DNA of 64,000 nucleotides from Caldimonas brevitalea (lineage in GTDB: Bacteria > Pseudomonadota > Gammaproteobacteria > Burkholderiales > Burkholderiaceae_C), in contig NZ_CP011371.1 of NCBI RefSeq assembly GCF_001017435.1, positions 4,526,001 to 4,590,000 on the forward strand, read 5' to 3'. How positions within the stretch are numbered: the stretch's first letter is position 1; each line of letters begins with the position of its first letter. The position numbers and the translations under genes are program-made. The notes beneath the pieces were generated by a model. It did not search any database and was not told the origin of the DNA. It saw only the letters and a program-made list of their open reading frames with translations. Of the stretch, positions 33,147 to 44,741 are shown one piece after another.

Positions 33147-33162
33147 AGGAACATCCCTTGCT
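33147..33162 (+). promoter_or_regulatory. Sigma-54 promoter of the Gly-rich gene
   Basis: AGGAACATCCCTTGCT matches the -24/-12 form GG[CA]AC-N5-TTGC[AT], with GG at 33148-33149 and GC at 33160-33161. Start of transcription would be near 33173, leaving a leader of about 170 bases before ATG 33342. It has the same GGAAC-N5-TTGCT form as the hemerythrin promoter. Confidence 0.6.
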
Positions 33163-33341
33163 CGAAACGCTTACTGCGTGCGGGCATCTCTTACACACGT
33201 CCCGCGGCCGCCGTTGCCCCCTGGCCTTGGTAAAGCCTACACGCGCTTGTAGAAGCGCCTGCGGCCACGGTCGGCCGCCACGGCTCAGATTCCTCCCGCG
33301 GGCAGCAGGAGCCATCACCCACAACTGTGAAAGGAACCGTG

Positions 33342-34805
33342 ATGTATCAGCGCAACTATGGAGATCAGCGACGCCCCGAAAGCGGTGACGACGAATACCG
33401 CGCGCGCGGCGAGGAGCGTTATGGCGGCAGCGATCGCTGGCAGGACCGGGGGTCCGGCCAGGGGCGCGCCGGGGGTCGGGACTACGAGACGGCCCGCAGC
33501 GGCGAATACGGCGGCGGCTCGGACTTCCAGGGCGGCAGCGACTACGGCGCCGGCAGCAGTGGTTCGATGGGCGACTACTACACGGGTGGCCAGCGCGGCA
33601 GCCAATACAGCCGCGGCGGATTCGGCGGCAGCTACGGCGCACAGTCCGCGCACGGCGGCTCGCAAGGCTGGGAGGGCTCGCGCGGCGGCCAGTACGAAGG
33701 TGGCGGGCAATACGGTGGCGGGCAATACGGTGGTGGCCAGTACGGCGGGGGCCAGTACGGTGGTGGGCGTTATGGCGGCGGAGCCTCCGGCATGGGCCAG
33801 GACCCGCGCCAGGGCGGCTCGTACGGCGGCTACGGCCAGGGCGACGACCAACGCTACGGCGGCCAGTACGGCCAGGGCCACGAACAGCAGCGCTATGGCC
33901 AAGGGTCCGAACAACGCTATGGCGGGCAATATGGCCAACAAGGCAGTCAGCAAGGCGGCCGCTACACCGGCCAACAAGGCAGCGACCAACGTTATGCGGG
34001 CCAGTACGGCGGCCAGCAAGGGGAGTCGCAACGCTACGGCCAACAAGGCGGCGGCGGGCAACAGCAGCACAGCGGCCCCTATGGCTCGCACGAGGGCGGC
34101 GGTTATGCCAGCATGTATGGCGGCTATGGCGGCGGCAGCAGCGGTGCCGGTTATGGCGGCGGATATGCCGGACAGGGCGGCTACGGTGGCGGCGGCTACG
34201 GCGGCCAGTCGTACGACGAAAGCTCGCGCGGCACCTATGGGCGCAACTACGGCGGGGCCGGCGACCACGAGGGCTACAGCTACCAGGGCCAACGCCATCT
34301 CGACCCCGATTACCACCAATGGCGCACCGAGCAGATGCGCAACCTCGACGAGGACTACCACCACTGGCGACAGGAGCGGTACAAGAAGTTCTCCGAAGAG
34401 TTCGGCCAGTGGCGCCAGACCCGCCAGCAGTCGGGCCGCAGCGGGCAAGGCGGCGCGGCCCAGAGCGGCAGCGGCCTCGGCAGCGAGACACAAAGCGGCT
34501 CCGGCAACAACCTCGGCTTCTCGAGCGGCGTGAGCGGCTCGGGCTCGACCAGCACCGGACTGACCGCGGGCAACGGCGGCTCGCTGGGCAACCGTGGTTC
34601 GAGCGGTGACACGTCGGGCCTGGGTGCCTTGTCGGGCACCGCCAACAGCGGCAGCGGTGCGGGCTCGACCGGCGCGACCGCGGGCAGCGGCGGCGTGTCG
34701 GCCAGCAGCGGATCGGCAGCGGGCGACGACCCGGCCACCCGCGCCAGCGGCAGTCCCAACGTCGCGTCGTCGTCGGGCAGTTCTTCGTCGTCGAAGAGCA
34801 AGTGA
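33342..34805 (+). CDS. Gly/Tyr/Gln-rich low-complexity protein with a DxDYxxWRxE motif domain
   Basis: A 487-residue hydrophilic protein with no signal or membrane segment. Residues 1-318 are a Gly/Tyr/Gln/Ser-rich disordered region with many GGQY, RYGGQ and GGYG repeats, resembling eukaryotic prion-like domains. Residues about 320-359 form a conserved charged motif with two DYxxWRxEQ/ER units ([12 protein letters not shown] and [12 protein letters not shown]) followed by [11 protein letters not shown], seen in stress-associated proteins of Burkholderiales. Residues 360-487 are Ser/Gly-rich and end in Ser/Lys. ATG 33342 has an AAAGGAA site; an in-frame ATG lies 15 bases upstream. The function is unknown. 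A sigma-54 promoter candidate lies upstream. Confidence 0.85.
33700..33774 (+). repeat. Five tandem 15-bp units encoding [10 protein letters not shown]
   Basis: Five consecutive 15-bp units (for example GGTGGCGGGCAATAC) encode GGGQY four times and GGGRY once within the low-complexity gene. The first two are identical at the DNA level, indicating recent slippage or duplication, so copy number may vary between strains. Confidence 0.85.
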
Positions 34806-34879
34806 CCGTGCCAGCCTGAGGTGGGTCGCAACGGCGACGGTCTTCCGCCCGCCGTTGCAGCCCCTCCCCCAAAAACAAG

Positions 34880-34896
34880 CGCCGGCAGTGCCGGCG
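34880..34896. terminator. Bidirectional hairpin terminator between Gly-rich gene and rpoN
   Basis: CGCCGG-CAGTG-CCGGCG stem-loop lies between the convergent genes. On the minus strand it is followed by CTTGTTTTTG (good U-tract, serves rpoN); on the plus strand it is followed by a shorter TTTG. It is 49 bases past the rpoN stop. Confidence 0.7.
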
Positions 34897-34944
34897 TTTG
34901 CGTTGGTACGGGCAACAGCAGCGCCTTGGCGGTGCGGCTTTACC

Positions 34945-36381
34945 TCAGACGTGCTTGCGGCGCTTCTCGACCGACGGCAAACGCATCATCTGGCGGTACT
35001 TGGTGACGGTGCGTCGGGCCACGCTCAGCCCCTGTCGCGCGAGTTGGCGGGCGATCTGGGCATCGGACAAGGGGTCGGAGGCGTCCTCGGCCTCGATCAT
35101 GTCCTTGATCACACCGCGGATCGCCGTCGCCGAGCACGAGCCGCCGCTGACGGTGGGCAAGGCGCGCGAGAAGAAATACTTCAACTCGAACACACCCAGC
35201 GGGGTGGCCATGTACTTGTTGTTGGTGACGCGAGAGACGGTCGACTCGTGCAACCCCAGTTCCTCGGCAATCTCGCGCAGGCCCAGCGGCTTCATCGCCA
35301 GCGCGCCGTATTCGAGGAAGTGACGCTGCCGCTTCACGATCGCCTGGGCCACATGCAAGATGGTGGCGAACCGCTGTTCGACGTTGCGCACCGTCCAGCG
35401 CGCCTCCTGCAGGTGGGCCGCCAGCTCGGAGTGCCCCGAGTCGCGGTGCCGCTGGAACAACTCTGCGTAGACCTGGTTCAAACGCACCTTGGGGATCACG
35501 TCGGGGTTCAGCGTGGCGGTCCACACACCGCGCACCTTGCGCACGATCACGTCGGGCGTCACGAACTGCGTGTTGGACGGGCCGAAGCGCCAGCCGGGCC
35601 GCGGGTCGAGATGGCGGATGCGCTCGCACACCGCCTCCACCTGCGCGACGCTCGCGCTCAGCGCGCGCGCCAACCCGTTGACGTCGCGCGTGGCAAGGCG
35701 GTCGAGGTGCTCCTTGACGATACGCCGGGCCAGTTCTTGTTCCGCCGGCTGCTCGATGTCCTTGAGCTGCAGCAGCAGACACTCGCGCACGTCGCGGGCC
35801 GCGATGCCGCTCGGGTCGAGCGATTGCACCAGCTTCAGCGCGACATTCATCTCGGTTTCGTCCGCCGGCGGCGCGCAACCGGTCAGGCCTTGCAACTCGT
35901 CCAGCGTCAGGCGCAGGTAGCCGTCGTCGTCGAGTGCCTCGATGATGGTGCCGGCGAGGGTGCGGTCGCGCTGCGACAAGGGCATCACGTTGATCTGGCT
36001 GTGCAGGTGCTGGCGCAGCGACACGTCGGCCGCGACCATCTCGACCAGATCGAGTTCACCGTCGCCGCTGCTGCCCCGCGACGAGCCGCCGCCCGGCGAG
36101 CCCCAGCTCTCGCGGTCCCAGGTCTGGTCGGCAGCGGGCGCTGCGACGGGGGTCACGTCGGCCCAGGTCGGCACCGCCTCGGCGGTGGCCGCTTCAGGGG
36201 CCGCAGCGGCGCTCGCGTGGGCGTCGGCGTCTTCCTCAAGGAAGGGGTTGCTGCCGACCGCTTGCTGAACCTCCTGTGCGAAGTCGAGCGACGACAGCTG
36301 GAGCAGGCGAACGGCCTGTTGCAAGCGCGGCGTCAGGGTCTGGTGTTGCCGGTGCTCAAGTCGAATGACCGGTGCGTTCAT
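34945..36381 (-). CDS. rpoN: RNA polymerase sigma-54 factor
   Basis: A 478-residue sigma-54. Region I is the Gln/Leu-rich N-terminus (LTPRLQQAVRLLQLSSLDF), which binds activators. An acidic and Ala-rich region II spans about residues 48-110, then the core-binding and DNA-binding domains, ending with the helix-turn-helix (HESTVSRVTNNKY) and the RpoN box ARRTVTKYR near residue 463. It is not in the usual lptB-rpoN-hpf setting; here it stands alone beside stress genes, so it may be a second rpoN copy. A sigma-54-type promoter lies about 270 bp upstream of the ATG, suggesting autoregulation. Confidence 0.96.
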   Translation of the reverse strand: MNAPVIRLEHRQHQTLTPRLQQAVRLLQLSSLDFAQEVQQAVGSNPFLEEDADAHASAAAAPEAATAEAVPTWADVTPVAAPAADQTWDRESWGSPGGGSSRGSSGDGELDLVEMVAADVSLRQHLHSQINVMPLSQRDRTLAGTIIEALDDDGYLRLTLDELQGLTGCAPPADETEMNVALKLVQSLDPSGIAARDVRECLLLQLKDIEQPAEQELARRIVKEHLDRLATRDVNGLARALSASVAQVEAVCERIRHLDPRPGWRFGPSNTQFVTPDVIVRKVRGVWTATLNPDVIPKVRLNQVYAELFQRHRDSGHSELAAHLQEARWTVRNVEQRFATILHVAQAIVKRQRHFLEYGALAMKPLGLREIAEELGLHESTVSRVTNNKYMATPLGVFELKYFFSRALPTVSGGSCSATAIRGVIKDMIEAEDASDPLSDAQIARQLARQGLSVARRTVTKYRQMMRLPSVEKRRKHV

Positions 36382-36821
36382 GCAGTCCTCCCGATGAAAA
36401 CCCCCACACCCGGCGCCGGCAGGTCAGTGAGGTTGCACATGTGAATGAGCAAGGATGGAAAACGAACCAGGCGTCGTACACGATGCCGCCCCTTCGCTCC
36501 GGCAAGAGCGGGCATGTCAGCGAGGGCGGGAAGGATAGGCACGGACTCTGGATTCTGAAAAACGAAAGCAGATCGGCCAGTGGCCGTTCTCGTCCGGCGT
36601 GATGGGCAGCGTGGAACTGCCTTTCGCTCACGGACGCGTCCTGTTTGAGCAACCCCTATGCCAGTCAATCAGGTCGCAAAGATCGATCGGCAGCAGTCGT
36701 TACCAAAACCCCAGAGCGCTACAAGAAGCGTCTGAAATGCCGCATCGTGAGAAGTGGAGGCCCACATAGCCCTGAAATACGCGAAACACTTGACAGGGCG
36801 TCCAGAACCGGTCCGGTTTGA
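36382..36821. other. 440-bp intergenic region upstream of rpoN
   Basis: No credible gene is seen here; short open frames have no coding character. It contains the sigma-54 promoter at 36648-36663 facing rpoN, an isolated TTGACA (36790-36795) without a matching -10, and a 13-bp palindrome AACCGG-T-CCGGTT (36806-36818) four bases past the GalU-like stop that could be an operator or weak terminator. GC content drops locally compared with the coding parts. Confidence 0.6.
36648..36663 (-). promoter_or_regulatory. Sigma-54 promoter facing rpoN
   Basis: Minus-strand TGGCATAGGGGTTGCT fits TGGCA-N6-TTGC[AT] with -24 GG and -12 GC exactly ten bases apart. Transcription would begin near 36637, about 255 bases before the rpoN ATG. 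No other gene lies between. Confidence 0.55.
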
Positions 36822-37823
36822 TCAGCTCCTCACCAGGCGCAGGCGCGGGCGACCGGTAACTGCTGCAGCACCTGTTGGCAAAGCGCGCGCCTGAGCTTGC
36901 GACAAATCTTCATTGACGGGAACAAATTGTGCAGTTTGCCGCAATAAATGCTGAAATTCGCCGGCGAGTTGCGGGTGCTCCAGGGCCTGCACGAGGTTCG
37001 CTTCCAGCCAACGTAATGGCGAGGCGCAATCGAAGCAGCGGCCCGAATAGCGATAGCTAAAAGCCGGCTCGGTGCGCAGCACTGCCTCGATCACGTCACG
37101 CAAGTCGCCGGTGTGCGGGCTCTGCGCGTCGGCCATCTGCTCGAGGTTGTCGAACACGGCCCTGGTGAGGATGCAGCGACCCACCGGCGACCACAGCCGG
37201 GCGTCGGCTGGCGGGCGGTGATCCAGCGAGGTCGCGACGCGGCGTATCGACGCCAGGCGCAGATCGCCAGCGGCCGTTTCCAACAGCCCCTCGCTGCCCA
37301 TCGTCATTTGCGGTGTCGCCGGTTCGACGGCAAAGATGGAGCCGGGCGTTCGCTGAAACTGTGCCACGAGCTGCGCCAACACCGTCGGCCGCGCCTCGGT
37401 CACCTGACCGGGCAGCAGCACGGCGCAAGCCTCGTCGTCCAGCAGGTGACGCGCCGCCAGCAACGCCTGCCCGACGCCTTGCGCCGCGTTGTGCCGCACG
37501 AAATGGGCGCGCACACCGCGCGGCAGCATGTCCACCTCGAGGTCGAGTTGTTCGTCCAGCGCTCGTTTGCCGCGGTCCACGATGAAGACCAATTCCTCGA
37601 TGCCGGCGCTCAAGGCCTCCGTCACCGCATAGTGAATCAGCGGTCGGTCGACCACCGGCAGCATCTCGATCGGCAACGCGTGTAACGCCGGCCAAGCGTT
37701 CGTCCCCTGCGCCATGACCGGAATGGCGGCCCGTCGCAGGCGCAGGTCCTGTGCAGGCGCCGGGCCGTCAGGTGCGGCACGCGATGCGCCGAAGGCGCGC
37801 CGCAAGCGGGCCAGCAGCTTCAT
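36822..37823 (-). CDS. GalU-like nucleotidyltransferase homologue, probably inactive
   Basis: A 333-residue protein aligned to UTP-glucose-1-phosphate uridylyltransferase across its length (IEMLPVVDRPLIHYAV is an obvious GalU block). The active-site loop is degenerate: the Arg of GxGTR is Asn42, and the two lysines of the ATKAIPKEM segment are His48 and Ile52. Reading frame and composition are otherwise normal, so it is a maintained pseudo-enzyme rather than decaying. It could bind sugar nucleotides or regulate envelope-sugar synthesis; this is inference. Its ATG overlaps the stop of the small upstream gene (ATGA), and both lie behind a sigma-54 promoter. Confidence 0.85.
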   Translation of the reverse strand: MKLLARLRRAFGASRAAPDGPAPAQDLRLRRAAIPVMAQGTNAWPALHALPIEMLPVVDRPLIHYAVTEALSAGIEELVFIVDRGKRALDEQLDLEVDMLPRGVRAHFVRHNAAQGVGQALLAARHLLDDEACAVLLPGQVTEARPTVLAQLVAQFQRTPGSIFAVEPATPQMTMGSEGLLETAAGDLRLASIRRVATSLDHRPPADARLWSPVGRCILTRAVFDNLEQMADAQSPHTGDLRDVIEAVLRTEPAFSYRYSGRCFDCASPLRWLEANLVQALEHPQLAGEFQHLLRQTAQFVPVNEDLSQAQARALPTGAAAVTGRPRLRLVRS

Positions 37824-38086
37824 TTCGGGCTCTGCAGGTTGCGCCGGTAAACCTTGTCGGTCACCGGGCCGCGATCGGTGTCGACCAGTCCGCGCTCGAG
37901 GTCGTTATGGGCCTGCTGCATCATGTCGCGCTGCTCGGGCTGCTGCTCATCTTGGCTGTCGGCCGATTCATCGCGCTCATGGGGAAGCCGGGGCTGCCGG
38001 TGGTGAGCCTGGTTGGCCGTGGTATCGCCGGTGCGCACACGCGCCGGTTCGCCAGGGCTCTGGCCGGGAGGCAAAGAGGTGGGCAT
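37820..38086 (-). CDS. Small hydrophilic protein coupled to the GalU-like gene
   Basis: An 88-residue protein without signal or membrane segments, rich in Gln, Asp, Arg and Pro and probably disordered in its first half. The second half (QQAHNDLERGLVDTDRGPVTDKVY) looks like the conserved part. I do not recognise a named family. Support for its reality: a GGAG ribosome site with correct spacing before ATG 38086, ATGA overlap with the next gene, and a textbook sigma-54 promoter 32 bases upstream. Confidence 0.72.
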   Translation of the reverse strand: MPTSLPPGQSPGEPARVRTGDTTANQAHHRQPRLPHERDESADSQDEQQPEQRDMMQQAHNDLERGLVDTDRGPVTDKVYRRNLQSPK

Positions 38087-38117
38087 ACGCTACTCCAGGA
38101 AGAGATGTTGCCAGTCA

Positions 38118-38133
38118 GGCAAGGCCCGTGCCG
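38118..38133 (-). promoter_or_regulatory. Sigma-54 promoter of the small protein/GalU-like operon
   Basis: Minus-strand CGGCACGGGCCTTGCC matches the consensus TGGCACG-N4-TTGC[AT] at all core positions, differing only in the first and last bases. -24 GG is at 38132-38131 and -12 GC at 38120-38119. The predicted start near 38108 leaves a 22-base leader with the GGAG ribosome site. Confidence 0.75.
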
Positions 38134-38178
38134 TTGCAGCCCGGCTCCTGCCGGGACGCGCCCGACGGCACCGAAACG

Positions 38179-38194
38179 GGGAACAGCAATTGCT
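38179..38194 (+). promoter_or_regulatory. Sigma-54 promoter of the hemerythrin gene
   Basis: GGGAACAGCAATTGCT has -24 GG (38180-38181) and -12 GC (38192-38193) with exact spacing and a perfect TTGCT. The predicted start near 38205 leaves a 35-base leader carrying AAGGAG. It is divergent from the sigma-54 promoter at 38118-38133, so one enhancer-bound activator could serve both. Confidence 0.72.
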
Positions 38195-38239
38195 GAAGCG
38201 TGCTGGACCGGGGCCGACGCCGGCTCACAAGGAGTGCCC

Positions 38240-38836
38240 ATGACAACACGCAACTCGAGCACACGAGCCGACGTCTTCGACCTGCTGAAAGACGACCACA
38301 AGCGGATCAAGAAGGCCTTTCGAGACTACGCGAAGCTCGACCCGGACACCGACCACGAAGCGCGCCGACAGTACGTCGAGCAAGTGTGTGCGCACCTCGA
38401 GCGGCACGCGACGCTGGAGGAAACGCTGTTCTATCCCGCTGCACGGACGGCGCTGGACGACCAAGGGCTGGTCGAGGAAGCCGAGGTAGAGCACGACGCT
38501 GCGAAGGCGCTGATCCTGCAAGTGCGCGCCACCCCACCCGACCACCCCCGGTTTGCCGCCCTCTTCACGGTGCTTGGTGAATATGTGAAGCACCACGTGA
38601 AGGAAGAAGAGAACGATCTGTTCAAGCAGATCAGCCGCGCCGACATCCAATGGGGCGAGCTGTTGGCCGACATGAAGGCCCGCCGCGCCGAACTGGAGCG
38701 CGAGGGGGAGGCGACCCCGAGCGCGCACACCGATCACGACCTCGATCAAGACGGGCACGGGGCCCGCGGTGCCGGCACCCCGCTGCCGCCCCCGCGCGGC
38801 ACGCGCTCCTCACAGCAGCACAAGGTCATCCGCTGA
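38240..38836 (+). CDS. Hemerythrin/HHE-domain protein
   Basis: A 198-residue cytoplasmic protein. Residues about 10-145 are a hemerythrin-like four-helix bundle with His/Glu ligands for a di-iron centre: DDHKRIKKAF, HLERHATLEETLFYP, EHDAAK, and KHHVKEEENDLF. Such proteins sense or store O2, NO or iron, or protect against oxidative stress. The C-terminal 45 residues are charged and Pro/Gly-rich, likely disordered. ATG 38240 has an AAGGAG site; the frame open from 37751 overlaps the antisense small gene and is not used. It is expressed from the sigma-54 promoter just upstream. Confidence 0.92.
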   Translation: MTTRNSSTRADVFDLLKDDHKRIKKAFRDYAKLDPDTDHEARRQYVEQVCAHLERHATLEETLFYPAARTALDDQGLVEEAEVEHDAAKALILQVRATPPDHPRFAALFTVLGEYVKHHVKEEENDLFKQISRADIQWGELLADMKARRAELEREGEATPSAHTDHDLDQDGHGARGAGTPLPPPRGTRSSQQHKVIR

Positions 38837-39095
38837 AGCGCGACCGGCCCGCTGCCCCCATGCCGCGCCGGCTCGTGCTTGCGTCCGCCGTCCGCCAAGC
38901 CCTTCCGGGCGCTCGCGGCGGCCCGCTGCCTTCCCGGCCTACCGAACCTCGAGCAGACCGCGCGCAGGAGCCGGCGCCACCGGCTTCGGTGGCGCGCCAC
39001 GCCGCGCTTCGCCGCCCTGCCGGCTCGGGCTCGAACCACTTTTTGTGGGCCGCGCCGTCGCCACGGCGCCTCGCATCACGCCATCAGGAGCATCC

Positions 39096-40376
39096 ATGAC
39101 CGGGCGACACCTGCTCGTCTTCTCGCATTTGCGCTGGGACTTCGTGTACCAGCGGCCACAACACCTGCTGTCGAGGCTGGCCCGGCACTATCCGGTGCTG
39201 TTCGTCGAAGAGCCCGTGTACGACGTCACCGCGCCCGCCCACCTGGAAGTGGCGCAACCGTGCGAGGGTGTGGTGCTGCTGCGGCCGCACACGCCCGTGG
39301 CTGCCGGGGGCTTTCACGACGACCAGCTGTCGGTGCTGGCGCCGTTGTTGCAACACCACCTGGCCGAGCACGCCGTCGACGACCTGATCGCGTGGTTCTA
39401 CACGCCGATGGCCTTGCCACTGATCACTGGCTTGGCTGTGCATGCCGTGGTCTACGACTGCATGGACGAACTGGCGGCCTTCAAAGGCGCGCCCAAACAG
39501 ATGCGCCAGCGCGAGTCGGCGCTGTTGAAGCAGGCCGACCTGGTGTTGACCGGCGGACCCAGCCTGTACGAAGCCAAGCGGGCGCTCAATCCCCATGTCC
39601 ACTGTCTGCCGAGCGCCGTCGACGCGCCGCACTTTGCCCCCCGCCGCGCGGCCTTGTCGGACGCCGCCCACCGCGCCCAGCGCCACCTGCCGCCGCCCCG
39701 GCTGGGCTATTACGGCGTGATCGACGAACGGCTCGACCTGCCGCTGGTCACCGCGCTGGCGGACGCCGACCCGCGCTGGCAGGTGGTCATGGCCGGGCCG
39801 GTGGTGAAGATCGACCCCGCCGCACTGCCGCAGCGCCCCAACCTACACTGGCTGGGACGCCAGGCCTACGAGGACCTGCCGGCCCTGGTGGCGGGCTGGG
39901 ACGTGTGTTTGCTGCCATTCGCGCTGAACCAGGCGACACGCTATATCAGCCCGACCAAGACGCTGGAATACATGGCAGCGGAAAAGCCCGTGGTGTCGAC
40001 CGCGATCCAGGACGTGATCGGCATGTACGGACACGCCGTGCAGATCGGTCACGACCGCCAGGCCTTCATCGCAGCCTGCGCCGCAGCGCTGGACGAAACG
40101 CCGTCGCAGCGCACCGAGCGCATTGCGCAGATGTGGGGCTGCGTGATGCGCATGTCCTGGGACGACACGGCTGCCACGGTGCTGCAGTTGCTCGACGACG
40201 CGGTCGGTGCTCGCCGGGGCCGAGTCGAGCCATCGGCTGCACCCGACGAGCAACAACCCCTCGACGTGCCGCTCGACGCGGCCGCGGCCGTGGCCCTGCC
40301 CGTGCCCACCGCCCTCGCCGCCCAGCCCGCGGTCGACGCGCAACCGGTGCTGCCCGCCGTGGCGGGGGCGAGATGA
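39096..40376 (+). CDS. Glycosyltransferase, GT-B fold family 1-like
   Basis: A 426-residue glycosyltransferase of the type often linked to UDP-galactopyranose mutase and exopolysaccharide clusters. The opening HLLVFSHLRWDFVYQRPQHLLSRLA is typical, as are VYDCMDELAAFKGAP near residue 120 and the donor-site region ISPTKTLEYMAAEKPVVST near residue 285. The last 55 residues are Ala/Pro/Val-rich and probably disordered. ATG 39096 has a CAGGAG site; upstream in-frame sequence to 38769 overlaps hemerythrin. It heads a three-gene set with the amidohydrolase (5 bp gap) and a GT4 enzyme. The 259-bp gap before it has no exact sigma-54 site. Confidence 0.88.
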   Translation: MTGRHLLVFSHLRWDFVYQRPQHLLSRLARHYPVLFVEEPVYDVTAPAHLEVAQPCEGVVLLRPHTPVAAGGFHDDQLSVLAPLLQHHLAEHAVDDLIAWFYTPMALPLITGLAVHAVVYDCMDELAAFKGAPKQMRQRESALLKQADLVLTGGPSLYEAKRALNPHVHCLPSAVDAPHFAPRRAALSDAAHRAQRHLPPPRLGYYGVIDERLDLPLVTALADADPRWQVVMAGPVVKIDPAALPQRPNLHWLGRQAYEDLPALVAGWDVCLLPFALNQATRYISPTKTLEYMAAEKPVVSTAIQDVIGMYGHAVQIGHDRQAFIAACAAALDETPSQRTERIAQMWGCVMRMSWDDTAATVLQLLDDAVGARRGRVEPSAAPDEQQPLDVPLDAAAAVALPVPTALAAQPAVDAQPVLPAVAGAR

Positions 40377-40380
40377 CACG

Positions 40381-41331
40381 ATGATCATCGATGCGCATGT
40401 GCACTGCACCGGGCGCGAGCGCGTCGACGACGTGCTGCGTTCCCTGGACGAGGCCCAGATCGACATGGCGGTGCTGCTGGCGCCGTTCTTGAGCGACGGC
40501 TACCGCCTGGACGACCCCGTCTCGCTGCGCCACGGCAATGCCCGGCTGGCCCAACTGGTGAAGGGGCACGAAGACCGCCTGGTCGGCTTTGCGGTCGTCG
40601 ACCCGCGCCGTCCGGACGCGCCCGACGACTTGCAGCGCGCCGTCGACCAGGGGTTGCGCGGCGTCAAGATGGTCCCCAGCGGCTGGTATCCCTACGATGC
40701 GGACGTGCAGCCCCTGTTCGCCAAGGCGCATGCGCTCAAGCTGCCACTGCTGTTCCACAGCGGCATCTTCATCGACGGCCGCTCCGGCCGCTTCTGCCGC
40801 CCGACCTTTTTCGAGGCGTTGCGGGACTACCCCGGGTTGAAGGTGGCCCTGGCCCACCTCGGCTGGCCCTGGACCGACGAAGCGATTGCCGTCGGCCTGA
40901 TCGAACGCATCCACGGCATCGCCCCGGACAACGTGATGTTCCGTTTCGACATTTCCTTCGGACCGCCGCCGGCCTACCGAAAAGAGGTGTTGGCCAAGGC
41001 GCTGAGCGTGCTCGGGCCCGAGTTGTTGCAGTTCGGCAGCGACTGTTTCCTGCCCTGCCCTGGCCCGCGGATCGCCGAGCGGCGCGGCTGGGTGGCCGAC
41101 TTGCTCGACCAACTCGAGGTCGACGCGCCGGCACGCGAGCGGATCTGGAGTGGCACGGCCGCTGCCTGGCTGGGGCTGGATGTCGAAGCCGCGCGAGCCG
41201 ACGCTGCCCGGCGCGCCGAGCAGCGGCCCGCGCAGGCCGCATGGCCACCACGCCGGGCCGGCGGCCTGTTCAGCTCTCTACTCGGTGGGGACGGAGATCG
41301 CGGCAGCGGCTTCTCCCCGGTGTGCTGCTAA
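40381..41331 (+). CDS. Amidohydrolase-2-family TIM-barrel hydrolase
   Basis: A 316-residue metal-dependent hydrolase. The N-terminal MIIDAHVHCTG carries the H-x-H metal motif, GVKMVPSGWYPYD and LLFHSGIF follow, then LAHLGWPW and the late catalytic Asp in LQFGSDCFLP. Substrate is unknown. Placed between two glycosyltransferases with tiny gaps, it may act on a modified sugar or an amide in an envelope polymer, which is inference. The C-terminus is Gly/Ala/Arg-rich and ends in CC. Confidence 0.86.
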   Translation: MIIDAHVHCTGRERVDDVLRSLDEAQIDMAVLLAPFLSDGYRLDDPVSLRHGNARLAQLVKGHEDRLVGFAVVDPRRPDAPDDLQRAVDQGLRGVKMVPSGWYPYDADVQPLFAKAHALKLPLLFHSGIFIDGRSGRFCRPTFFEALRDYPGLKVALAHLGWPWTDEAIAVGLIERIHGIAPDNVMFRFDISFGPPPAYRKEVLAKALSVLGPELLQFGSDCFLPCPGPRIAERRGWVADLLDQLEVDAPARERIWSGTAAAWLGLDVEAARADAARRAEQRPAQAAWPPRRAGGLFSSLLGGDGDRGSGFSPVCC

Positions 41332-41345
41332 CCCGAACAATAGCC

Positions 41346-42620
41346 ATGGCCTCCGTGCAAAACCCCCAGCGAACCCACGTCCTCCAGATCGTAGGCAACG
41401 CCATCGTCGGCGGCATGGAAACCTATGTGTTCCGCCTGATCGAACGGCTGCCGCCCGAGCGTTTCCGTGTCACCGTCCTGTGCCCTTGGGAGAGCCAGGT
41501 GAGCGAACAGCTGCGCCAGCTGGGCGTCGAAGTGCTGGTGGTGCCGATGCCAGACGACCCGCCCTGGGCCTCGATCCAGACGACCAGCGCCATCATCAAA
41601 AGCCATGCGGTGGACGTGCTCCACGCCCACCTGCCCAACGCCCACCTGCTGGGCGCGCTGGCCGGCCGGCTCACCCAGACGCCGGTGCTGACCACCATCC
41701 ACAGCCGGCAGTTGGCCATCTGCGATGTGGAAGCGCATCGGCTCGCGGGCACCCACCTCAGCGTGATCTGCCAGTACACCTACTTCCAGGCGCTCACGCT
41801 GGGCGTCACCGCTGCCCAGCTGCACGTCATCCCCAACGGTGTGGACACCGACATCTTCAAGCCGGCCAAGGTGCGCGAAGGGCCGCTGCGTTGCCGCCTC
41901 GGCATCGCGGCCGAAACGCCGCTGGTGGGCTTCATCGGCCGGCTCTCGTGGGAGAAAGGCCCGGAAAGTTTTCTGCGTGCCGCGCTGATCGCCCATCACC
42001 AGCGCCCCGATCTGCACTTCGTGCTGGTCGGTGATGGGCCGATGCAATCGCAATGTCGCACCTTCATCGAGAACTTCGGCATGGGCGCGTACGCACACCT
42101 CGCCGGCTTGCAGGTCGACATGCCGGCCGTCTACCCCGAACTCGACCTGGTCGTCTCGACGTCGCACTCCGAGGCGATGCCGCTGGCCCTGATGGAAGCG
42201 ATGGCCTGCGGCCTGCCTATCGTGGCGACCCGGGTCGGCGGTGTGCCGGAGATGGTTCAGCATGGTTTGACCGGGGCGCTGCACAACCCGGGTGACTTCG
42301 ACGGCATCGGCGCACAGATCGCCCGCCTGTTGAATCAGCCCGACACGCTCGCCGCCATGGGCCAGCGCGCCCGCCAACGTGCCGAATCGCAGTTCTCGCT
42401 CGCCGACTCGGTGGCGCGCACCGGTGAGTTGCTGGCGCGTCTCGCCCAGTCGCGCGAGGACCGCCGCCGCATCGCCGCCGTGCCGCTCGACGCACCACCG
42501 ACCGGCCGCGCCGTCGCCGCCTCTCCGGCGGCACTCGGCGCTGCTGCGGGCAGCGCGGCCACCGGCAGCGGCGGACGCAGCACCGGCAGCCGCTCGGCGA
42601 CCAAGCAGGCGCGGGCTTGA
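41346..42620 (+). CDS. Glycosyltransferase family 4
   Basis: A 424-residue GT-B enzyme. N-terminal acceptor domain block HVLQIVGNAIVGGMETYVFRL; C-terminal donor domain with VIPNGVDTDIFKP, GFIGRLSWEKGPESFL and the E-x7-E motif in STSHSEAMPLALMEAMACGLPIVAT (split by Met/Leu residues). It transfers a sugar from a nucleotide donor to an envelope or exopolysaccharide acceptor. The last 50 residues are Ala/Ser/Gly-rich. It begins 14 bp after the amidohydrolase and is followed directly by the 61-bp repeats, the first of which overlaps its stop codon. Confidence 0.93.
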   Translation: MASVQNPQRTHVLQIVGNAIVGGMETYVFRLIERLPPERFRVTVLCPWESQVSEQLRQLGVEVLVVPMPDDPPWASIQTTSAIIKSHAVDVLHAHLPNAHLLGALAGRLTQTPVLTTIHSRQLAICDVEAHRLAGTHLSVICQYTYFQALTLGVTAAQLHVIPNGVDTDIFKPAKVREGPLRCRLGIAAETPLVGFIGRLSWEKGPESFLRAALIAHHQRPDLHFVLVGDGPMQSQCRTFIENFGMGAYAHLAGLQVDMPAVYPELDLVVSTSHSEAMPLALMEAMACGLPIVATRVGGVPEMVQHGLTGALHNPGDFDGIGAQIARLLNQPDTLAAMGQRARQRAESQFSLADSVARTGELLARLAQSREDRRRIAAVPLDAPPTGRAVAASPAALGAAAGSAATGSGGRSTGSRSATKQARA

Positions 42621-42800
42621 GCCCCGCCCGGCCGCCCGAAGGGGCTCGTGCCGTAGTGCGAAGCACGGAGGTTACCAATGAGCCCCGCCCGGCCGCCCGA
42701 AGGGGCTCGTGCCGTAGTGCGAAGCACGGAGGTTACCAATGAGCCCCGCCCGGCCGCCCGAAGGGGCTCATACCGCAGTGCGAAGCACGGAGGTTACCAA
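42618..42800 (+). repeat. Three tandem 61-bp repeats
   Basis: Units at 42618-42678, 42679-42739 and 42740-42800; the first two are identical and the third has a few changes. Each contains AGCCCC...GGGGCT and CGTGC...GCACG inverted repeats able to fold as hairpins, then CGGAGG followed six bases later by ATG or its remnant, a ribosome site plus start codon. Since 61 is not a multiple of three, each copy shifts frame, giving short overlapping frames (Pro/Arg-rich peptides starting MSPARPPEG). The array ends 47 bp before a sigma-54 promoter. A partial, decayed fourth copy may follow at 42801. It could be a dispersed REP-like element or activator sites. Confidence 0.9.
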
Positions 42801-42847
42801 TCAGCCTCGCCTCGCCCGGCGGTCCGATCAAGCCCCTGGGGCCGGGC

Positions 42848-42863
42848 GGGCACGTCGGTTGCG
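42848..42863 (+). promoter_or_regulatory. Sigma-54 promoter of the BON-domain gene
   Basis: GGGCACGTCGGTTGCG fits TGGCACG-N4-TTGC[AT] at every core position; -24 GG at 42849-42850 and -12 GC at 42861-42862. Predicted start is near 42874, giving a 50-base leader to ATG 42924 with AAAGGAG. Confidence 0.72.
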
Positions 42864-42923
42864 TACCGCCTAGAGCTGGCGGCACTCCGCCACAACGCGT
42901 GATCAACAACCAAAGGAGTGAAT

Positions 42924-43244
42924 ATGAAGAAGCTTGTCCTCGCAGCGATGATGGCTGCCACAGGTATCCTGGCCACGACCGGCTGCGCCGTCTCCGACGG
43001 ACAGACCAGCGTCGGCCAGTATGTGGACGACGCGACCATCGCCACCCGTGTGAAGACCCGCTTCGCCCAGGACGACACGGTCAGCGCGATGCGCATCGAG
43101 GTCGAGGCGCTGCAGGGCACCGTCCAGCTGTCGGGATTTGCCACCAGCGAAGCCGAGAAGTCACGCGCCGCCGAACTGGCGCGCAGCGTGGCTGACGTGA
43201 AGAGCGTGCGCAACGACATCATCGTCCGGGCGCCCGCCAAGTAA
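42924..43244 (+). CDS. BON-domain lipoprotein
   Basis: A 106-residue protein with a lipoprotein signal (MKKLVLAAMMAATGILATTGC, Cys21) and one BON domain (about residues 35-105: IATRVKTRFAQDD..MRIEVEALQGTVQLSGF..VKSVRNDIIV). BON domains bind membranes or phospholipid surfaces and are typical of OsmY-like periplasmic stress proteins. ATG 42924 with AAAGGAG six bases upstream is better than the GTG at 42918. It has its own sigma-54 promoter and is followed by the NtrC-type activator. Confidence 0.92.
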   Translation: MKKLVLAAMMAATGILATTGCAVSDGQTSVGQYVDDATIATRVKTRFAQDDTVSAMRIEVEALQGTVQLSGFATSEAEKSRAAELARSVADVKSVRNDIIVRAPAK

Positions 43245-43322
43245 ACGCGCGGGGCCGAGCGGTGTCGCTATGTAAATCCCACAGCAAATCCGACCGGCCC
43301 CCCACCTACCCCCTACCCTCGC

Positions 43323-44741
43323 ATGCCCCACGTCCTCATTGTTGACGACTCCCCCGACGAACTCGGGTGGATGAGCGAGGTTGTACAGGCGCAGGGATGC
43401 ACTGTGGCGACCGCAGATTCTCTGCGTGCGGCCCGTGTGCAGCTGGTGCGCCAACAGCCCGAAGTGCTGCTGACCGACATCCAGCTGCCCGACGGCAACG
43501 GCTTGCAACTGGTGCACGACCTCGAGGCGCCGGCACAAACCGAGGTGGTCGCGATCACGGGGCATGCGTCGGTCGACAGCGTCGTCGAGGCGCTGCGCCT
43601 GGGCGCCACGGACTATCTCGTCAAGCCCGTCGACATCGAGCGCTTGCGAGCCATTCTGAAACGCCAGCCCGAAGCCGCCGAACTGCGCCACGAGATCGGT
43701 GAGTTGCGCGGAGAGCTGCGCAAGGCGGGCCGGTTCGGGGCCTTGTTGGGTGGATCGCCGGCGATGCAGTCGCTCTACGACAAGCTGGCGCGCGTGGCAC
43801 CGACCTCGGCCACCGTGCTGCTGATCGGTGAAAGCGGCACCGGCAAGGAATTGGCCGCACGCACCATCCACGACCTCAGCCGACGCCGCAAGCTGCCCTT
43901 CCTCGCCGTCAACTGCGGTGCAATCTCTCCGCAGTTGATCGAGAGCGAACTGTTCGGTCACGAGAAGGGCAGTTTCACCGGCGCCGACCGGCAGCACGTG
44001 GGCTTTTTCGAGCGCGCCAACGGCGGCACGCTGCTGCTCGACGAGGTCACCGAAATGCCGCTCGAACTGCAGGTGAAGCTGCTGCGGGTGCTGGAGACGG
44101 GCAGCTTCGTCCGCGTCGGCACCACCCAGCCCATCTCGACCGACGTGCGCATGGTGGCGGCCACCAACCGGCTGCCCGAAAAGGCCGTCGCGGAAGGCCG
44201 CTTTCGGGAAGATCTGTACCACCGCCTGAACGTCTTTCCGGTGCACCTGCCGCCGCTGCGAGAACGCGGCAACGACATCGAGATGCTGGCGCAGTATTTC
44301 CTCGACGAACTGAACCGTCAGGAGGGCACGCACAAGACCTTCTCCCCGCAGGCGATCGCGAAGCTGTACGAGCGCAGCTGGAGCGGCAACGTGCGCGAGT
44401 TGAAGAACTATGTGCAGCGCGCCTTCATCCTGTCCGACGATGTGGTGGAGGCGGCCGAGAGCACCGAAACCCAGCCTGAGGAAGGCCCGTCCGACGTCAT
44501 CAGCATCCGCATCGGCACGCCGCTCGACGAGGTGGAGCGCCGCGTCACGATGGCGACGCTGGAGCGGTGCGGCCAGGTCAAGCGCAAGACCGCGGAGGTG
44601 CTGGGCATCAGCCTCAAGACGCTCTACAACCGTCTGGAGGTCTATTCGATGAAAGACCAGGCGCGCGACGGCGGCGACGTGCGCCGCCAGGCCGGCAAGG
44701 ACCGGCCGACGGACAACTCCACCAGCCCGCCGAAACACTGA
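43323..44741 (+). CDS. Sigma-54-dependent response regulator, NtrC family
   Basis: A 472-residue transcription activator: receiver domain (1-115; acidic pocket D8/D9, phospho-acceptor D52 in LLTDIQLPDG, Thr in ITGHAS, Lys in LVKPVD), AAA+ domain (about 140-380; Walker A GESGTGKE, sigma-54 contact loop GSFTGA in place of GAFTGA, Walker B TLLLDEVTEM, RERGNDI arginine region) and a Fis-type helix-turn-helix (about 400-440; KRKTAEVLGISLKTLYNRL). No histidine kinase gene adjoins, so it is an orphan regulator in this window. It lies 78 bp after the BON gene and is the obvious candidate activator of the island's sigma-54 promoters. Confidence 0.95.
   Translation: MPHVLIVDDSPDELGWMSEVVQAQGCTVATADSLRAARVQLVRQQPEVLLTDIQLPDGNGLQLVHDLEAPAQTEVVAITGHASVDSVVEALRLGATDYLVKPVDIERLRAILKRQPEAAELRHEIGELRGELRKAGRFGALLGGSPAMQSLYDKLARVAPTSATVLLIGESGTGKELAARTIHDLSRRRKLPFLAVNCGAISPQLIESELFGHEKGSFTGADRQHVGFFERANGGTLLLDEVTEMPLELQVKLLRVLETGSFVRVGTTQPISTDVRMVAATNRLPEKAVAEGRFREDLYHRLNVFPVHLPPLRERGNDIEMLAQYFLDELNRQEGTHKTFSPQAIAKLYERSWSGNVRELKNYVQRAFILSDDVVEAAESTETQPEEGPSDVISIRIGTPLDEVERRVTMATLERCGQVKRKTAEVLGISLKTLYNRLEVYSMKDQARDGGDVRRQAGKDRPTDNSTSPPKH

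Follow-up and report, generated by a model that had tools for sequence, protein, structure and literature searches.

Many members of the Burkholderiales carry two rpoN genes (PMC4371752). In Ralstonia solanacearum grown in minimal medium, an rpoN1 mutant was reported to have lost rpoN2 expression (PMC4371752), which is what a -24/-12 promoter upstream of rpoN2 would predict. In Burkholderia pseudomallei, katE expression was described as absent from an rpoN2 mutant (PMC4745423), and a 2025 study of B. thailandensis, in which RpoS rises little in stationary phase, named RpoN among its possible substitutes (PMC12322963). The second rpoN of Burkholderiales has resisted explanation. The present analysis concerns a 64,000-nucleotide stretch of Caldimonas brevitalea (the window; positions 4526001-4590000 of a single-contig genome of 6,476,147 bp), in which an 11.64-kb island contains a second sigma-54 gene, rpoN2, an NtrC-type activator gene and five -24/-12 elements. 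We consider it likely, with a probability of roughly 0.68, that this island houses the controls of a self-amplifying RpoN2 circuit governing a genome-wide stress and envelope regulon in Burkholderiales. The data suggest a concrete and testable job for the second rpoN, based on a conserved element upstream of rpoN2, a linked activator family and stress-type targets. No description of such an RpoN2 stress regulon was found in searches of open-licence full texts, in agreement with an earlier note on this DNA, which knew of no comparable system; the precedents are the second rpoN genes of Ralstonia and Burkholderia.

The rpoN and NtrC-type regulator genes that the earlier note had placed around the island are confirmed by the domains of their products, and a further rpoN, about which it had asked, is indeed present in the genome. 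RpoN2, the island protein, is 46% identical to this other copy, RpoN1, and possesses the domains PF00309, PF04963 and PF04552, with a TIGR02395 score of 444.3 bits versus a cut-off of 277.35. The RpoN box reads ARRTVTKYRQ in all seven RpoN2 proteins of the genus and ARRTVAKYRE in all nine RpoN1 proteins, and the helix-turn-helix of RpoN2 carries VTNN where RpoN1 has VTTA. RpoN1 is found in all nine genus genomes and RpoN2 in seven, which are precisely those with matches to hemerythrin (HHE). In the order as a whole, a strict search (E<=1e-130) matched RpoN2 in 23 of 399 genomes, and a scan of named genomes left 80 RpoN2 loci, among which Aquabacterium, Azohydromonas, Rhizobacter, Rubrivivax, Roseateles, Methylibium and Hydrogenophaga are represented. 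In a tree of 57 RpoN rows, one clade of 18 (support 100/98) holds all nine RpoN1 proteins of the genus, while seven rows, including the second RpoN of B. multivorans and that of G154, fall between this clade and the remainder, on a side that depends on the root, since the root is arbitrary.

Evidence for self-control is found upstream of rpoN2 itself. In 85 of 93 loci, the pattern GGCA[CT]-N5-TTGC occurs no more than 350 bp before rpoN2 (median distance 86 bp), compared with 233 of 5000 random 370-bp stretches of the same loci (4.7%) and none of nine rpoN1 genes. These 93 derive from 95 scored loci, two of which (L121 and L129) could not be scored at rpoN2 owing to a late match start or a contig end; L126 and L127 were counted despite belonging to the RpoN1 clade, and L130, L131, L132 and L181, which are repeat contigs, were left out here as well as from the activator tree and the survey of genes behind sites. 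By this conserved element, rpoN2 qualifies as a predicted autoregulated sigma-54 paralogue. A block resembling TTGTAGCG was also noticed by eye 5' of rpoN2 in several genomes, being missing in L063.

The five -24/-12 elements with exact spacing claimed by the earlier note are all present, 46-281 bp 5' of the named genes, its coordinates being off by one or giving the other end; as it had stated, GG[CA]AC-N5-TTGC is matched by four of them. Three elements score 14.9-17.6 and those at 38132 (minus) and 42849 (plus) score 12.4, a score of 12 being reached by 5.9% of random 370-bp stretches. Exact-pattern counts are the safer numbers, because the score matrix was built from a general consensus. 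The pattern GG[CA]A[CT]-N5-TTGC occurs 292 times in the 6.476-Mb genome, compared with 103 for the reversed pattern, so that about 0.52 matches would be expected in 11.64 kb; six were observed, an approximately 11-fold enrichment (Poisson P about 2e-5, a post hoc hand calculation), which bears out the above-chance density that had been proposed. Five of these six lie upstream of genes, the sixth (35263, minus) within the rpoN2 coding sequence; in 380 kb of the same genome (19 spaced 20-kb stretches), 19 matches were found, 11 of them with a predicted gene start downstream.

Conservation is stronger evidence than the scores of single sites. In six same-genus islands (L063, L064, L065, L066, L067 and L093), a site of at least 12 lies upstream of the matching gene in 27 of 30 comparisons, so that the conservation question raised earlier was answered in the affirmative. 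By gene, this amounts to 6/6 for the Gly-rich gene (scores 13.0-16.0), 6/6 for rpoN2 (16.9-19.4), 6/6 for the BON gene (12.4-14.2), 5/6 for the hemerythrin gene (12.4-18.4 in five relatives, the best candidate in G007 scoring 9.7) and 4/6 for the small-protein gene (10.6-14.9 in five relatives, with a best candidate of 11.9 in L066). The DNA flanking the sites aligns poorly compared with the sites themselves, and control genes of the seven genus islands (GT_A, GT_B, amidohydrolase, brkB and plsY) reached 12 in only 3 of 28 cases. Exact-pattern counts in relatives agree: 28/38 for HHE, 23/35 for BON and 11/22 for the small protein, versus 3/26 for GT_A, 1/14 for GT_B, 0/13 for the amidohydrolase, 2/21 for brkB and 0/6 for plsY. 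Additionally, two genus genomes, G005 and G006, retain RpoN1 and lack rpoN2, GlsB and all HHE matches (E<=1e-10), with other genes beside plsY where the island would be. Therefore, some parts of the regulon are present or absent as a group, two genomes being few. The closest BON genes of these genomes (L295 and L297; in G005:C4 and G006:C5, about 14-15 kb from plsY) share 47-48% identity with the island BON gene and are site-free, with a best score of 8.3, which makes them a possible natural case of loss of control.

The island activator carries receiver, sigma-54 AAA+ and Fis helix-turn-helix domains, with D52, T79, K101, a Walker A motif GESGTGK and GSFTGA; on these features, it classifies as an NtrC-type sigma-54 enhancer-binding protein, predicted to be controlled by phosphorylation. 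The activator probably shares the BON promoter, as its gene begins 78 bp after the BON gene, and no cognate histidine kinase was seen among the scanned island genes. In the activator tree, group A (98/87) unites this island with several other rpoN2 loci, and group B (93/78, weakly supported) comprises most other rpoN2-linked loci together with a paralogue from the same genome, 57% identical and 88 kb away at 4658264. The activator family formed by both groups is linked to rpoN2. In 20 hand-picked rpoN2 genomes, with 74 to 81 candidates scored in each, one close homologue (E<=1e-110, 56-62% identity; one in the sense of one found) was detected in all 20; in 17 it shared a contig with rpoN2, separated from it by 1.3 to 45.5 kb, and in two drafts it lay on another contig. 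The fetched stretches of L189 and L205 had already included the activator, and those of L198 and L206 part of it at one edge. In two group-B loci (L148, 9910-13129; L159, 9887-13584), rpoN2 is followed by a hybrid histidine kinase gene, each with its own -24/-12 site, and these loci appear to form a module of sigma factor, kinase and activator. In the group-B region of the present genome (L068, 2713-14641; C1:4647712-4659640), the paralogue activator is encoded together with two hybrid histidine kinases, and divergent -24/-12 sites accompany the lipocalin, holin-like and GlsB genes found there. Furthermore, one plasmid, from a leaf Comamonadaceae bacterium (L363, 6798-10134), carries rpoN and a family activator, about 61% identical to group-B members, nearly adjacent to each other; therefore, the pair can be plasmid-borne.

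Sites of the same type were also found before stress-type genes beyond the island. Among 23 hemerythrin paralogues examined outside the islands of genus genomes (five further matches being left out), 13 are preceded within 100 bp by a site of 12 or more. The GlsB/YeaQ gene adjoining the paralogue activator has a -24/-12 site, and 7 of 8 genes of this type reach 12 within 200 bp; the island BON genes do so in 7/7 genomes, compared with 0/30 for Usp genes, used as a control family. In a family tally of 70 genes that lie behind sites of at least 14 and neighbour rpoN2 or the activator of other genomes, whose rows are not independent because related genomes repeat, AI-2E transporters (9), DUF2383 (7), BON (4), hemerythrin (4), Crp-type regulators (4), GT20 of the trehalose-synthase type (3) and GlsB (3) were counted. 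The families shown for 70 control genes (25 of 82) include none of these. The neighbours of B. multivorans rpoN2 (L362) include DUF892, PRC-barrel, CBS, DUF1328, Ku/LigD and DUF3175 genes, several behind sites, the scores reaching 19.4 before a glutamine-amidotransferase-type gene and 17.7 before a UdgX gene. A module of rpoN2, family activator and stress-type genes behind -24/-12 sites is present in many Burkholderiales. As separate observations, AI-2E-like genes of Roseateles-type genomes lie within about 2 kb upstream of rpoN2 (L166, L167, L169, L170, L174, L175, L176, L177 and L178) behind TGGC[GC]C..TTGCT elements scoring about 14.6, these rows having been matched by N-terminal likeness, and DUF2383-like genes lie a few kilobases from rpoN2 (at about 4.5-5.6 kb of L162, L167, L169, L174, L194 and L202) with sites of 14.3-16.0, one row confirmed singly and the others by N-terminal likeness.

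In the circuit proposed here, RpoN1, presumably constitutive, perhaps together with basal RpoN2, would act with the phosphorylated NtrC-type activator and first fire the rpoN2 and BON-activator promoters. RpoN2 and the activator would then build up in a double positive feedback, and their raised levels would switch on the island hemerythrin, small-protein and Gly-rich genes; the same switch would reach other hemerythrin genes, GlsB/YeaQ genes and the like outside the island. A stress role is the best inference, because stress-type gene families lie behind the sites and katE depends on rpoN2 in B. pseudomallei. If so, a sigma-54 factor with obligatory ATP-driven activation and positive feedback would run a stress regulon, which could explain the need of katE for RpoN2 in Burkholderia. 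A broader proposal, which we regard as tentative and somewhat less probable than its negation, is a sigma-54-based general stress response of Burkholderiales, in which self-inducing RpoN2 and a co-evolving NtrC-type activator family would drive, among others, hemerythrin, BON/OsmY-like, GlsB, DUF2383, CsbD-like, DUF883, trehalose-synthesis and DNA-repair neighbour genes. Some such stress genes are under RpoS in enteric bacteria; in this proposal, general-stress output would be switched by ATP-dependent activation and not by sigma-factor competition.

Several observations weigh against the RpoN2 circuit. No site of at least 12 lies within 100 bp of 10 of the 23 hemerythrin paralogues, and most BON matches outside the island lack one (2 of 23 have it). 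The largest family of the tally, AI-2E (9/70), is no obvious stress family and has elements of the TGGC[GC]C type, and the control genes include lipocalin (2), holin-like (2) and LigD (2) genes from the same neighbourhoods. Eight of the 93 loci lack the exact rpoN2 site; two of these (L126 and L127) are in the RpoN1 clade and six are not RpoN1-type, and in four of the six (Azohydromonas) the element, around position -72, is degenerate. Neither k-mer enrichment in 27 promoter regions nor a palindromic expectation-maximization search of 27 upstream regions returned a credible shared enhancer motif, the best matches of the latter being the upstream region of the Gly-rich gene overlapping plsY. 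In the published systems, katE was also attributed to RpoS (PMC4745423), and R. solanacearum rpoN2 mutants were reported to show no phenotype (PMC4371752, PMC4676750). Finally, G008 lacks the island activator and keeps rpoN2 and the sites, so that the island activator would be replaceable, perhaps by the 57% paralogue. The earlier note had described a self-contained sigma-54 regulon on one island; its own sigma factor, linked activator and stress/envelope-type targets stand, but the self-contained character does not, because sites lie elsewhere, before the outside hemerythrin paralogues and the GlsB/YeaQ gene, a related activator is encoded 88 kb away and the island activator is absent from G008 despite its sites.

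Since RpoN1 could serve all these promoters, the alternative to be weighed most carefully is that they are real sigma-54 promoters mainly served by the housekeeping factor, with RpoN2 redundant or only tuning. The occurrence of RpoN1 in every genus genome, the nearly identical RpoN boxes and the rpoN1 dependence and lack of phenotype of R. solanacearum rpoN2 agree with it, as do strong sites elsewhere in the genome that have the same core (e.g., L247 and L260, whose genes look nitrite-reductase-like by eye). However, rpoN2, HHE matches and GlsB are jointly absent from G005 and G006, which retain rpoN1, rpoN2 neighbours stress-type genes in many Burkholderiales, and RpoN1 and RpoN2 of R. solanacearum were described as not interchangeable. 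We regard this alternative as unlikely, at odds of somewhat more than one in five, and a circuit dedicated to RpoN2 and not RpoN1 as plausible.

It is considerably less probable that the island is mainly an exopolysaccharide or envelope cluster centred on its glycosyltransferases, in which sigma-54 would govern the cell exterior, with hemerythrin and BON as passengers. The two glycosyltransferase genes, the amidohydrolase gene and the GalU-like gene would suit this, and sigma-54 has been proposed as a controller of the bacterial exterior (PMC3162934); however, the L065 and L067 islands do without the glycosyltransferase and amidohydrolase genes and retain the remainder, and these genes are mostly without sites of their own, unlike HHE, BON and the small protein. 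In the window, the only site for these genes is a 12.0 match before the second glycosyltransferase gene, inside the amidohydrolase gene. That the -24/-12 matches arose by chance in a GC-rich genome is very improbable: bare GG-N10-GC occurs 1720 times in the window and two of the five sites score only 12.4, but the enrichment over the genome, the conservation in six genomes and the rpoN2 site in 85 of 93 loci are difficult to reconcile with it.

Table 1. Predicted -24/-12 elements, genes and repeat of the rpoN2 island (positions within the window)
Feature	Position	Strand	Remarks
-24/-12 element, Gly-rich gene	33148..33161	+	GGAACATCCCTTGC; AGGAAC..TTGCT
Gly/Gln/Tyr/Ser-rich protein	33342..34805	+	Open reading frame, start read from sequence
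rpoN2, second sigma-54 factor	34945..36381	-	AID, core-binding and DNA-binding domains
-24/-12 element, rpoN2	36649..36662	-	GGCATAGGGGTTGC; TGGCAT..TTGCT; 281 bp before ATG; score 17.6
GalU-like protein	36822..37823	-	Probably catalytically dead; accessory among islands
Small hydrophilic protein, 88 aa	37820..38086	-	Open reading frame
-24/-12 element, small-protein gene	38119..38132	-	GGCACGGGCCTTGC; CGGCACG..TTGCC; score 12.4
-24/-12 element, hemerythrin gene	38180..38193	+	GGAACAGCAATTGC; divergent from small-protein element; score 14.9
Hemerythrin-like HHE protein	38240..38836	+	PF01814 9.5e-18
Glycosyltransferase, amidohydrolase, glycosyltransferase genes	39096..42620	+	Profile matches; accessory
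61-bp tandem repeat, 3.2 copies	42618..42811		Just upstream of BON promoter
-24/-12 element, BON gene and probably activator	42849..42862	+	GGCACGTCGGTTGC; score 12.4
BON-domain protein	42924..43244	+	PF04972 2.7e-18; lipobox-like N-terminus LATTGC (read from sequence)
NtrC-type activator, group A	43323..44741	+	78 bp after BON gene

The island is flanked by plsY and brkB, beyond which a DNA-polymerase-I-like gene was recognized by eye (features in Table 1). In searches of 92 rpoN2 loci, which include L130, L131, L132 and L181 as repeats of other contigs, the Gly-rich protein had tblastn matches in 22, the 88-aa protein in 30 and the GalU-like gene in five, two of these being one contig. Neither the Gly-rich nor the 88-aa protein was assigned to a family in Pfam and NCBIfam profile searches. 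The GalU-like protein scores 129.9 bits with the GalU profile, versus a cut-off of 326.8, and likewise falls below the GalF cut-off; GTN and PIEM replace GTR and PKEM, whose arginine and lysine we take to be catalytic GalU motif residues, which fits the pseudo-enzyme suggested earlier. Its gene had no matches in the L065, L066 and L067 islands. The island hemerythrin has the HHE ligand motifs and is related to the PA2171 persister family (PMC13041383), yet scores 73.5 bits with NF053874, under the curated cut-off of 190. Many islands have the glycosyltransferase and amidohydrolase genes, which may receive read-through from the hemerythrin promoter, and the core of the 61-bp repeat was found, among 363 fetched loci, only in those of the same genome (L033 and L307).

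Sigma-54 control of PEP-CTERM exopolysaccharide genes by PrsK/PrsR-type systems involves an NtrC-type response regulator beside glycosyltransferases. The island activator did not qualify as such a regulator, its TIGR02915 score of 353.6 bits lying under the cut-off of 502.6. The known regulons of the RpoN paralogues of Cereibacter (Rhodobacter) sphaeroides are nif and flagella. The likeness of that species to the present case lies in several rpoN copies with cognate activators (PMC11999139). In R. solanacearum, there is likewise a second rpoN, which resides on the megaplasmid and is not interchangeable with rpoN1 (PMC4371752, PMC4676750); unlike here, those reports assign it neither regulon nor phenotype, its role "remains enigmatic", and it is likened to the present gene by description only. 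The RpoNp of Bradyrhizobium sp. DOA9 is also a second sigma-54 factor, with a role in stress adaptation and a restricted predicted regulon, but it is alphaproteobacterial, and hemerythrin goes unmentioned in the main text of that report (PMC13207237). Burkholderia RpoN2 differs from that of the island in its neighbours, the B. multivorans protein sharing 51.8% identity across 76% of the query and its gene having no annotated sigma-54 activator closer than 9 kb. It resembles the island system in that the stress gene katE needs rpoN2 (PMC4745423) and in that the B. multivorans copy lies among stress-type genes.

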